Below, one piece after another: positions 1 through 38,239 of a stretch of 41,418 nt of DNA. The notes under the pieces were generated by a model. That model was not told the origin of the DNA. It ran no database searches and saw only the letters and a program-made list of their open reading frames with translations. Each line of letters begins with the position of its first letter. Positions within the stretch are counted from its first letter, which is position 1. The position numbers and the translations under genes were made by a program. The stretch is taken from contig NZ_FUWU01000017.1 of NCBI RefSeq assembly GCF_900167415.1, positions 15,992 to 57,409 on the forward strand, given 5' to 3'. The stretch is from Fibrobacter intestinalis (GTDB lineage: Bacteria > Fibrobacterota > Fibrobacteria > Fibrobacterales > Fibrobacteraceae).

Positions 1-380
1 CTTTGCATCCCTGAAACTTGGAATCTCCGATTCCATAGTTGAAGTATCCCTGAAAGGGACAATTCGTCTAAGGGAACAAGTTCCCAAGACTCATGGGGCT
101 AACCGTTTTGCTTTTAAAAGCAGCAGGACCGCCGCTTCTACTGTGTTTAAGGCAAAATTCAATTTCCATGGGTAGGCAAGCATCGCCGTCTGCGAGAAAA
201 ATTCATTTTCTGAAAAAGAAATTTCCGTTTTGAAGAAGAGTTCAACCTGTAAAGAAACATTCCTCTTTGAAAAGAATGAAAGAAAAACTCCATTTGAAGA
301 TGAGTTCCCCTTGTGAAAAGAAGTTCCCAATTTGAAAAAAATGAAATGCAAGCGTCTAGTGGAGGATTGTATATAATTAT
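1..380 (+). repeat. Composite intergenic repeat module, copy 1
   Basis: Long non-coding stretch that shares ordered blocks with copies at 25366-25650 and, reversed, 19394-19098. Block A (about 1-97) matches 25441-25537 base for base with about eight differences and contains the small hairpins GGAATC-TCC-GATTCC, TCCCT-GAA-AGGGA and GGGAAC-AA-GTTCCC. Block B (about 103-168, from CGTTTTGCTTTT to CAATTTCC) is shared with the reversed copy only. Block C (about 170-197) ends in GTCTGCGAGAAAAATT. Block D (about 196-345) is a degenerate tandem array in which TTC recurs every 19-20 bases before a TTTGAAAAG-like core. Block E (359-378) is GTGGAGGATTGTATATAATT. The window edge may cut the left end. No coding potential is credible here. 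Function unknown; it could be a mobile regulatory element or a promoter carrier. Confidence 0.8.
359..378 (+). promoter_or_regulatory. Module end box with TATAAT, upstream of the antiporter
   Basis: The box GGAGGATTGTATATAATT holds a perfect TATAAT at 372-377. It is repeated almost exactly at 25624-25643, again just in front of a gene. No convincing -35 hexamer lies 16-18 bases upstream, so promoter activity is an inference. The antiporter start codon is 48 bases downstream. Confidence 0.4.
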
Positions 381-19097: not shown

Positions 19098-19394
19098 CTG
19101 GGAACTATATCCAATCCTCCACCACAATATCACAATTAAAATTTTTTCAAAGGGCGAACATCTTTTTCCCAAGCTGAACCCTTCTTCAAACGGGGCTTTT
19201 TCTTTCTCAAGGGCGAATCCTTTTTCAAAGTGTGAACTTTCTTTCCCAAGCTGAACTCTTCAATGTTTCTTCATACCGTAAATTTTTCTCGCAGACAGCG
19301 AGATGCTCGTTTGCCACACACAAATCTTGGGAAATTGCATTTTAGCTTGAACACAAGGGAAGCGGCAGCCCGCCGCCTTGAAAAGCAAAACGAC
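19098..19394 (-). repeat. Composite intergenic repeat module, copy 3 (reversed)
   Basis: Read on the minus strand, the blocks follow the same order as in copy 1. Block B begins GTCGTTTTGCTTTT and ends GCAATTTCCC (about 19394-19335). Block C is the hairpin GCGAG-CAT-CTCGC plus TGTCTGCGAGAAAAATTT (about 19317-19281). Block D (about 19275-19142) is a tandem array of TTCAGCTTGGGAAAGAAAG-like units with a 19-20-base period. Block E (19122-19104) is GTGGAGGATTGGATATAGT, where the TATAAT of the other copies is degraded. Block A is missing. It points toward the AIPR gene, as copies 1 and 2 point toward theirs. Confidence 0.75.
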
Positions 19395-24242: not shown

Positions 24243-24974
24243 TTATTTCTTCGCCGAAGCTGCTGGAGCCTGAATTCCCAACAGTTCCACTTCAAAAACC
24301 AGAAGGCTGTTTGGCGGAATCATCGGTTGGCGTCCGCTCGGTCCATAAGCGAGATTGCTCGGAATCCAGGCCTGTACCTTTCCGCCGACCTTCATCGTCT
24401 TGAGAAGTTCCGTCCATCCCGGAATCACAGCCGTCACCGGAAATTCCGCAGGCTGCCCGCGCTTGATGGAGCTGTCAAATTCGGAACCGTCCAAAAGAGT
24501 GCCCGCATAATGCACCGAGACAATCGACGAATCCGTGGGCGTTTCGCCAGTTCCTTCGGCAATCACCTTATACTGGAGTCCGCTTTCGGTCGTAATCACG
24601 CCTTCAGCCGTTTTGTTCTTGGCCAAGAAAGCGTCCTGTTCCGCGACATTCTTTGCAGCGAGAATGCTGTCCTTTTCCATCTTTTTCTTTTGCAGGTTCT
24701 GCGAAAATTCGTTCAGCACAGCAAAAACCATGGAGTCCGACATCATCCAATGCGCACTGTCCTGATTATAGCGATCCTTAAATCCCTGATAGAAAGCGTT
24801 CAAATCCAAATCAATGGAATCCCTGGAGACAAGCTGGTAATGCGCCTGCGAACCAAAATTCGCTCCGAGCGCATAACTGTAATTGTCTTTTTCCGTCACC
24901 AGAGAAGTTTTGCCCGGTTCATTGCAGCCGAGGAAAAGCAGAGCGGAAAGTCCGAGAATCATCGTTTTTTTCAT
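24243..24974 (-). CDS. FKBP-type peptidyl-prolyl isomerase lipoprotein
   Basis: A 243-residue lipoprotein (LLFLGC lipobox) with the Mip/FkpA layout. A helical N-terminal dimerisation segment (about 30-120) is followed by an FKBP domain (about 128-235). That domain has SGLQYKVIAEGTG, VHYAGTLLDGSEFDSS, VIPGWTELL and PSNLAYGPSG, with the usual active-site aromatic and Asp residues. It acts on prolyl bonds of envelope proteins as a folding helper. GGAC eight bases before the ATG is a weak Shine-Dalgarno. It has its own terminator. Confidence 0.93.
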   Translation of the reverse strand: MKKTMILGLSALLFLGCNEPGKTSLVTEKDNYSYALGANFGSQAHYQLVSRDSIDLDLNAFYQGFKDRYNQDSAHWMMSDSMVFAVLNEFSQNLQKKKMEKDSILAAKNVAEQDAFLAKNKTAEGVITTESGLQYKVIAEGTGETPTDSSIVSVHYAGTLLDGSEFDSSIKRGQPAEFPVTAVIPGWTELLKTMKVGGKVQAWIPSNLAYGPSGRQPMIPPNSLLVFEVELLGIQAPAASAKK

Positions 24975-25106
24975 TACAAAGTCCTTTACAAAAATGATGA
25001 AGAATGTCTATAAAATAAAAATTTTGCAAAAAAAAGAACTCGGACGGCGTTTCTTTCTTCTTTAAAATGGGGACTTATATACAAAACTCCACCCGATTTG
25101 CTTGGT

Positions 25107-25240
25107 TGGTGCCCTTCGATAAACTCAGGGACCGTCGGTTAGTGAGCTTGTCGAACTAGTCGAACCATGGTTAGGGATTAGGGGTTAGCGACTAGTAATC
25201 AGTGATTAGTTGGAAGTTGGAAGTTGGAAGTCGGAACTGA
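25107..25240. repeat. REP-like palindromes and short tandem repeats
   Basis: GCCCTTCGATAAACTCAGGG at 25110-25129 is an inverted relative of the motif at about 16741-16759. GAGCTTGTCGAA and CTAGTCGAACC follow. Then GTTGGAA occurs three times plus one GTCGGAA variant (about 25209-25236), and AACTGAT twice. No gene is credible here. Confidence 0.65.
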
Positions 25241-25365
25241 TAACTGATAACCGAGCTCCCCCTTCTCGCTATGGCGCAAAATCCAATTCCACCCCACAAA
25301 ACCAAAACTTCCAACCACAAAGCGTGGCGGGGGATAGGGTGAAGGGAAAAGGGGCTGCCCATGAG

Positions 25366-25650
25366 TCTTAAGAGTTTTACTCTTTTAGACGAATTGTCCC
25401 TGGAAGGGAGCCTTTGCAAAAGCGTGCAAGGCTCATGGGGCGCTGCATCCCTGAAACTAGGAATCTCCGATTCCGTAGTTGAAGTATCCCTGGAAGGGAC
25501 AATTCGCCTAAGGGAACAAGTTCCCAAGGCTCATGGGTAAGCGAGCACCTCGCAGTCTGCGAGAAGAAATTTCCCTTGAGAAAAATAAATCCATGCTTTG
25601 AAAAAAATTATTTGAGGGAATTTGGAGGAAGATTGTATATAATTCCTTTA
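25366..25650 (+). repeat. Composite intergenic repeat module, copy 2
   Basis: Block A (25441-25537) matches copy 1. To its left, 25362-25412 is an inverted second version of block A, from CCCATGAGTCTTAAGAGT to GACGAATTGTCCCTGGAAGGGA. The region is therefore a large imperfect palindrome of about 180 bases made of smaller hairpins. Block B is absent. Block C (25535-25560) has GCGAG-CAC-CTCGC and AGTCTGCGAGAAG. Block D is short (about 25560-25612). Block E (25624-25643) is GGAGGAAGATTGTATATAATT, again with TATAAT, 71 bases before the XRE gene. Confidence 0.8.
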
Positions 25651-25713: not shown

Positions 25714-26022
25714 ATGTCAATGGAAGATTCTGCAATTATTCGGTTAGCGTTCCGTGAGGTGATAATGCGATGGCGAGCCGAATTACACATAAGCCAATTT
25801 AAAATGGCGGACCTCTGCGCCACATCGCGGACGCACATCAGCCGGTTGGAAAATTGCAAAGAATCCACGACTTTACCGAAAATCAACACCATTCTGAACG
25901 GAATCGGGAAAAGCTGGACCGAATTCGGCGAAGCCATGGACAAAGCCCTGAAAGAACAGGTAGCCGCCAAACAAATAAAGCTCAAAGCGGCAGAAAACAA
26001 ACCCATTTGGTCGGTAAAATAG
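25714..26022 (+). CDS. Small XRE-type helix-turn-helix regulator
   Basis: A 102-residue protein with an XRE/Cro-like helix-turn-helix at about residues 24-75: ISQFKMADLCATSRTHIS, then RLENCKESTTLPKINTIL, the usual pattern of a short domain in which helix 3 contacts DNA. The last 25 residues are charged and Lys-rich. The start may be 25714 or the ATG at 25720; neither has a clear Shine-Dalgarno. It sits right behind repeat copy 2. The target is unknown; the neighbouring peptidase gene or its own promoter are candidates. Confidence 0.8.
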   Translation: MSMEDSAIIRLAFREVIMRWRAELHISQFKMADLCATSRTHISRLENCKESTTLPKINTILNGIGKSWTEFGEAMDKALKEQVAAKQIKLKAAENKPIWSVK

Positions 26023-36651: not shown

Positions 36652-37015
36652 TCATTTCGGCACCACCCGGCATTCATCCCGTTCAATCGCATGATTTTTG
36701 TGTACGTTGCAGTAACAGCTTTTTTGCAGTAGAACAAGGATAGCGACAAGCAAAAGGATCGATACGCCGACCATCACGTCACCTGTAATCGCGATAAATA
36801 TCTTACCCCATCCGTCTTCTTCATTTTCATAAAATTTTTCTACAAACGGCACCCAAGTCACCTTTGTATTCTGATGAACCTCGACGCTCTTGGCATAGAT
36901 AGCACCATAGAACCGCTAGCCCGATTGTCCAATGACAACTTCCGCATTGGGCACAACAATTGTTCCCACGAAATAGCTTTGAATGAACTCGCAGTTGGTT
37001 CCATAGCAGAAACAA
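36652..37015 (-). pseudogene. Truncated copy B of the choice-of-anchor-like exported protein, with in-frame TAG
   Basis: Bases about 36840-37010 are close to 37723-37890. Translation reads YGTNCEFIQSYFVGTIVV, PNAEVVIGQSG, TAG, RFYGAIYAKSVEV, KVTWVPFVEK. The TAG stands where copy A has AAG (Lys), a single-base change. After that it differs from copy A: an acidic stretch, a hydrophobic segment (VGVSILLLVAILVLL) and a Cys-rich tail ending RVVPK. The 5' half is missing; it begins right after the lipoprotein gene's stop. It is clearly a broken paralogue. Confidence 0.75.
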
Positions 37016-37642: not shown

Positions 37643-38239
37643 TTAAAGCTTTCCCAAATCAGCGACATAAAGACTTTTTCCAATTTCGGTATTTCTCATC
37701 ACAATAGTTGTACCCATCGATTCCTCTACAAACGGCACCCAAGTCACCTTTGTATTCTGATAAACCACGATGCTCTTGGCATAGATGGCACCATAGAACC
37801 GCTTGCCCGATTGTCCAATGACTACTTCCGCATTGGGCGCAACGATTGTCCCTGCAAAATTACTTTGGATAAATACATGATTGGTCCCGTAGTAAAAAAT
37901 CGATATGTGCCGAGCCGCTTCGACCATATCATCCGCGACAATTGTCCCATTCCACTAAAAGTCATTCCCCACATGGAATGCAATACTGCCATTCGTCGGC
38001 GCATTCAATTTCGCATCTCTCTGAAAAACGAGGGATCCGGCCAAGCGATGGCCCGTTGAATTAAAACTCAATTCGGAATTGGAGTTGAAAACATATTCTA
38101 CATGATTCGATGTATTTTCAATCCTAAAGCGAAGAACGGTTTGATTACTCTGGGAAAACTGCTCATCCAAAGTGCGAACCGTGATAGCACTCGATAAACT
38201 CGCTAGAATCAGGAAAACCGCTAAACAAACCCTATGCAC
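37643..38239 (-). pseudogene. Copy A of the choice-of-anchor-like exported protein, interrupted by one TAG
   Basis: From a GTG at 38239 (TAGGAGTAGGAC just upstream) the frame reads a signal peptide (LAVFLILASLSSA) and HVGNDF, meets TAG at 37957-37955, and continues in the same frame WNGTIVADDMVEAARHISI, TIVAPNAEVVIGQSGKRFYG, VTWVPFVEE to 37643. The second half resembles beta-helical surface domains in which an IVAPNAxV, FYGAIYAKSI, KVTWVPF pattern recurs (choice-of-anchor/fibro-slime-like). TAG is used as an ordinary stop elsewhere here, for example in the AIPR and M23 genes. This is therefore most likely a nonsense mutation, though the promoter and both halves look intact. Confidence 0.8.

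Follow-up and report, generated by a model that had tools for sequence, protein, structure and literature searches.

The window, to which all coordinates refer, is a 41,418-nt stretch of the Fibrobacter intestinalis genome. The element under study occupies 25358-25537, starts with CCCATGAG at 25358 and ends with CTCATGGG at 25537. A divergent gene pair flanks it. On the minus strand is a relative of FKBP-type peptidyl-prolyl isomerases (24243-24974) that scores under the equivalog cut-off; on the plus strand, a short antitoxin-like reading frame with a helix-turn-helix spans 25714-26022, also scoring under cut-off. The element consists of two related inverted repeat units, L (25358-25439, minus strand) and R (25446-25537, plus strand). 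The initial annotation had placed a large palindrome of small hairpins at 25362-25541; the palindrome is present, but these coordinates are a few bases off.

R is 92 nt long, starts with GCATCCC and is predicted to fold as a four-way junction (P1-P4) without unpaired junction bases (−33.6 kcal/mol). The 5' side of P1, CCCTGA (25449-25454), pairs with 25531-25533 and 25535-25537. It is followed by P2 (AACTA-GGAATC-TCC-GATTCC-G-TAGTT; 25455-25480), P3 (GAA-gta-TCCCT-GGA-AGGGA-caa-TTC; 25481-25505), which forms the center of the inverted dimer, and P4 (GCCT-AA-GGGAAC-AA-GTTCCC-A-AGGC; 25506-25530), the arm with the strongest covariation. L is a divergent relative of R in the opposite orientation, closed by CCCATGAG/CTCATGGG in this copy, and has three arms of its own. 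On the plus strand, these are a CTT-hairpin-TTAG motif (TCTT-AAGAGT-TTT-ACTCTT-TTAGA; 25366-25389), a small central hairpin (TCCCT-GGA-AGGGA; 25397-25409) and, based on sequence and fold, a GCCTTTGC-AAAAGC-GTGCAAGGC-like hairpin (25409-25432). P2, the reverse complement of P4 (itself the CTT-hairpin-TTAG motif) and the L hairpin share one plan, that is, CTT, a short stem-loop and TTAG; P2 is a variant with TAG preceded by A or G, and all three hairpins have further foot pairs outside. A unit is built of two inverted halves. Each of them forms an imperfect hairpin, with a paired foot (NCT/AGN), an unpaired notch that is asymmetric (one T versus two or three on the CTT strand) and a 6-bp tip of variable sequence.

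Several details read from the sequence at the outset hold. The inner hairpins differ between the halves (AAGAGT-TTT-ACTCTT at 25370-25384 and GGGAAC-AA-GTTCCC at 25512-25525), TCCCT-GGA-AGGGA occurs at 25397-25409 and 25487-25499, and GGAATC-TCC-GATTCC lies at 25460-25474. The proposed kinship of the arms is confirmed by 80% complementarity over 30 nt and by blastn, in which the L half of a single query matches R halves of other copies on the opposite strand. The suggestion that loops vary between copies while stems are kept is only partly correct for the two R units in the window. The second unit (6-97, plus strand), which has a T-A outer pair in P4, carries a GAA loop between TCCCT and AGGGA in P3 where the unit at 25446-25537 has GGA; in contrast, the loop of GGAATC-TCC-GATTCC is the same in both units, which differ there in the bases just outside the stem, and this loop varies in other copies.

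When both strands of 25352-25545 were folded as single-stranded DNA, z-scores were −6.2 (plus) and −7.5 (minus), and none of 200 shuffles was as stable; folding strength is comparable on the two strands.

Other repeated features are found nearby. A promoter-like TTGAGG..TATAAT stretch, identified by eye, lies at 25611-25642 on the plus strand, after the right end as in many copies. Promoter-like GGAGGATTGTATATAATT stretches are present at 25622-25646 and 360-378 and, on the minus strand, at about 19098-19120 and 25071-25098; they follow the right ends of many copies and are also found at places without copies. Another shared intergenic repeat (GGTTGGTGCCCTTCGATAAACTCAGGGACCGTCGGTTAGTGAGC) lies beside the element at 25098-25185 and is also present in the genus relative G001 (L047:1608-1700). 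Two direct repeats of 179 nt, 84% identical and 886 nt apart, are located at 36834-37012 and 37720-37898.

Copies in the genome and in relatives

As the initial annotation had advised, genomic copies were collected and aligned with structure. A covariance model search gave 55 full R units, and a search by flanks alone gave 89 hairpin sites. With a single query, blastn matched the own genome at least 72 times, with 40 of the 111 candidates scored. These copy counts are lower bounds because many contigs end inside or beside the elements. As expected of an inverted dimer, full units score against the covariance model on both strands, mostly with about 49-62 bits on the opposite one. Many other copies carry about 95 to 350 nt of variable sequence between L and R, and the copy in the window represents a short form. 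Tandem arrays of up to three R units, truncated copies and half units are also present, in mixed intergenic places; gene orientation around copies was judged from reading frames that include spurious ones inside the repeats, and nothing beyond "mixed" is concluded from it. The E-values of the nhmmer profile for L are partly circular, as the profile may include L copies; blastn and arm complementarity are independent of it.

It is highly improbable that the element consists of chance palindromes or of unrelated repeats that merely lie side by side, the latter being one condition under which the original claim would have failed. In favor of this reading, several other repeats crowd the intergenic DNA here. 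However, L and R are related, and in clusters holding an L half together with an R unit or half-R the two lie in opposite orientation. Moreover, none of the controls described below (Markov simulations, reversed pattern, same-letter shuffles and redealt arms) reproduces the counts.

Full R units were found in the own genome only (25 genomes searched with the covariance model and 41 with blastn). Two of the 25 genomes had a covariance model match at E ≤ 0.001, namely, the own genome and G001 with one weak match, and blastn gave matches in 2 of the 41. G001 has its own version, AACTT-GGAACT-TT-AGTTCC-TTAGTT, at 14 sites; this version is absent from the 40 further genomes searched, among them the own genome. 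Hairpins flanked by GTCGC..ATGAC in the G001 sample (L183-L202) also have different stems within constant flanks. Searches for exact patterns in the genome_contigs and viral_contigs sets gave no matches; these sets may omit the own or very near records, and the result therefore carries little weight. We considered a target-site duplication (GCTTTGC on both sides), but the flanks of R units are too mixed to claim one.

Pairing across copies

To leave the stem letters free, we searched the whole genome by flanks alone (CCATGAG N CTT .. TTAG N CGAATTG). This pattern has 89 sites, compared with none for the reversed pattern. The 6-bp stem is perfect at 83 sites, contains only G-T wobbles at three and has one mismatch at three; the perfect stems comprise five sequences (GGAAGC, 38; GGGAAC, 24; AAGAGT, 19; AGGAGC, 1; AGGAAC, 1). 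The outer N-N pair is C-G at 43 sites, T-A at 40, A-T at one, T-G at one and C-A at four, and is Watson-Crick in 84 of 89, with three kinds of pair. Among the 21 distinct types, 15 have a perfect stem, compared with a mean of 6.5 and a maximum of 13 after redealing the 3' arms in 2,000 trials; the outer pair fits in 17, which three of the 2,000 trials reach. A second flank-defined set (GACACTT..TTAGTGGAGTTA) has 41 sites with GTCAAT (22) or GGTAAC (19) stems, often as neighbors about 52 nt apart. Using no prior pattern, CTT/TTA was the commonest flank pair of perfect hairpins in 400 kb of the own genome (15 of 1,170), where the mirror pair TAA/AAG likewise occurs 15 times; CTT/TTA was found in 0 of 1,140 hairpins in G003, in 5 of 1,518 in G001 and in none of five first-order Markov simulations, in each of which the commonest flank pair had 4 cases.

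Covariation across the R units is real. On the covariance model alignment of the 55 units (50 distinct), 97.6% of cells pair. In a shuffle-based covariation test, 48 cells were changed on both sides, compared with 18.7 (sd 2.9) in shuffles, none of 500 of which reached this number, and with at most three in slid controls; the covariation score was 0.100 versus 0.065. This alignment was fitted to the structure, and the double-changed cells are not independent events, since the copies share ancestry and few events lie behind them. The number of pairs with double changes (4 of 34) was not above shuffles, as 80 of 500 reached it, and all 500 reached the number of further pair types (19). A sequence-only alignment gave a weaker signal, with 13 double-changed cells versus 5.4 and one slid control at 17, above the true register; it misaligned the P4 tips, and the covariance-model-fitted alignment was used afterwards. 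Two units on L032 with unrelated 5' ends were kept among the 55 and lower the result slightly. The initial annotation had taken such covariation to suggest selection for structure. While the covariation stands, selection does not follow directly from it because template switching has been published as a source of multibase compensatory changes (PMC8794818, in the part available) and because the copies share ancestry; selection for structure is not proven.

We also considered that the unit works as RNA, either as a structured transcript or as structure at the ends of neighboring transcripts, and regard this as quite unlikely. The fold is stable, as noted above for the 92 nt, and R with its flanks has a z-score of −4.25 when folded as RNA. 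One-sided departures from pairing on the plus strand include 29 G-U cells versus 13 A-C cells; four of the 29 come from the two L032 rows, in their unrelated 5' end, and copies share ancestry. As a test of strand, this excess is suggestive but not decisive. By contrast, folding is comparable for the two strands, the intergenic settings of the copies are mixed, with copies in tandem and truncated ones among them, and the right ends of many copies are upstream of the promoter-like stretch and, thus, outside that transcript. The element has no Rfam match at the gathering score, and the sole match in the window is a tRNA elsewhere; at E ≤ 1, there are only two weak, implausible matches, downstream of the unit. 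An ordinary RNA family was dropped for want of Rfam support, and an RNA function of the unit is possible but unsupported. The element also carries a warning: covariation among repeats, even when strong, does not in itself prove that they encode a functional RNA.

In many copies, R forms the tip of a GTCATTGCGA..AAGCAATC palindrome. The GATTGC arm lies directly upstream of 27 of the 55 R units, CGCAATGACG lies just downstream of 14, and 10 have both. The palindrome is present in 8 of 25 genomes (G000-G005, G008 and G013), with 63 sites in the own genome, and has constant feet and many unrelated paired tips across genus and family. We set aside 26 distinct interiors of less than 11 nt. Of the 55 distinct longer ones among the matches listed, 32 contain an inner stem of at least 4 bp that lies no more than 2 nt from the ends, compared with 2.6 on average and at most 8 in same-letter shuffles. 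The 32 paired interiors comprise 17 different stem sequences; the remaining 23 of the 55 listed lack such a stem by this measure, and several pair further inside. Because the interiors vary widely yet often pair, we conclude that repeats in this lineage, beyond the element reported here, commonly combine a constant foot with a tip that varies but pairs.

Proposed mobility and possible origin of the paired tips

We lean slightly toward the reading that the element is a REPIN-like, non-autonomous repeat. The copy number, the inverted-dimer layout, the pairing despite changed stems and the constant flanks are direct observations, and from them we infer mobility, an enzyme and a single-stranded DNA substrate. 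Two inverted halves around the small central hairpin would form one unit, which would fold into the four-way junction when single-stranded. An unlinked single-stranded DNA transposase or a related enzyme would recognize the notch and the foot and copy the unit into intergenic sites. The tip would be required only to be paired, so that its sequence could drift while its complementarity stays. An unlinked enzyme acting on single-stranded DNA is favored because the parts of the element resemble REP elements and because CGTC repeats have no known transposase, according to the available text of PMC3733652.

In 25 genomes, no protein exceeded the NCBIfam cut-off for RAYT, and the Y1 transposase loci have no R unit nearby. 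Linked IS200 transposases were rejected as the mobilizer, given that their flanking hairpins differ and that no R unit is nearby. The one RAYT-like domain in the own genome that approaches this cut-off (73.5 bits versus 80; G000:C60) is a Y1 domain in frame within an MmeI-type restriction-modification gene (L211:1-2205; G000:C60 around 47991-48272). In this gene, the Pfam order is MmeI_TRD (168-369), Y1_Tnp (517-591) and MmeI_C (656-726), which places Y1 between the target recognition and C-terminal domains, and in-frame AAGCGGC..GCCGCTT palindromes flank the Y1 domain on both sides.

The chief rival is that the arms are complementary for mutational reasons: in a folded palindrome, during replication or hairpin repair, one arm would template the other, and no function would be needed. 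We consider this possible, although rather doubtful as the explanation. The changes sit at the tip and affect several pairs at once, with the near flanks almost unchanged. For example, GGGAAC and AAGAGT copies differ in four of six stem pairs, with 15 identical nucleotides downstream and three mismatches over the 15 nt upstream. Likewise, three of six pairs differ between the GTCAAT and GGTAAC tips, with one difference in 15 nt on each side. The same pattern is seen for the unrelated GTCATTGCGA..AAGCAATC foot in eight genomes. SbcD, part of a hairpin nuclease, is present. Creation of multibase compensatory changes by this mechanism is published in the work cited above, and L and R have the P3 loop in opposite orientation (TCC versus GGA next to AGGGACAATTC), which we count in favor of template switching, as spacer inversion is reported for it in the accessible part of PMC8604942. 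However, the loops of all 21 distinct P4-type hairpins begin with T, arguing against spacer inversion there. Moreover, the repeats retain their unpaired notch and GTA/CAA internal loop, which copying alone would not protect. Among the 89 sites, one-sided intermediates also exist, at five in the outer pair and at six in the stem. REPIN-like mobility and template switching may both be at work.

More tentatively still, we speculate about tip renewal, in which the foot stays constant and the whole tip is replaced, with both arms written in one event by fold-back templated synthesis after hairpin opening. On this idea, which we rate as improbable, the genus would hold one foot with many unrelated, always-paired tips, up to a complete cloverleaf unit. 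In any case, one genome here provides a natural data set in which the same foot and flanks carry different paired tips, suited to weighing selection against template switching as the source of compensatory changes.

Comparison with known repeats

No report of this family was found in the open-access literature searched by title and abstract (REPIN/RAYT, Fibrobacter repeats, CGTC REPs and template switching); the part of PMC6006769 available has no mention of Fibrobacter.

The element shares with REP/REPIN and BIME sequences (the RAYT-associated GTAG superfamily) high-copy, dispersed imperfect palindromes, inverted dimers, clusters and half units, as well as a conserved unpaired notch and a variation of stems and loops that preserves complementarity. 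Consistently, in the text available of each source, compensatory changes are described as common in REPINs (PMC3116915), and TnpA-REP needs the conserved bulge of E. coli REPs to be unpaired while stems and loops vary (PMC8266576). Unlike GTAG REP/REPIN sequences, it has no 5' GTAG/GTGG at the hairpin foot (in the listed sites, the foot reads NCTT, or CTAA on the opposite strand) and no RAYT gene flanked by the same repeat; instead, it has a CTT..TTAG foot and a 92-nt unit folding as a four-way junction. Compared with the CGTC REPs (Di Nocera et al. 2013), the GTCATTGCGA..AAGCAATC palindrome around R has a CGTC-like tag, an AT-started stem and no linked transposase found, whereas R itself lacks the tag and the tips are long paired hairpins or whole R units rather than 4- to 5-nt loops. 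Fibrobacterota is absent from the phylum list for CGTC REPs, and a text search for Fibrobacter gave no hits, in the portion of PMC3733652 available. Similar to IS200/IS605 ends and their MITE-like derivatives, which have subterminal imperfect hairpins recognized as single-stranded DNA, the element consists of imperfect hairpins; in contrast, the IS200-type genes of this genome are flanked by other hairpins (AACCACCCGT..ACGGGTGGTT).

Altogether, the element adds a REP-like family from the Fibrobacter lineage, to which a FISUMP domain also points, without the usual tag or a linked transposase. Because alternative complementary stem residues in REPs are already published (PMC3733652, in the part available), the kind is known; what appears to be new, as a variant of it, are the four-way unit, the CTT/TTAG foot and paired tips that are exchangeable.
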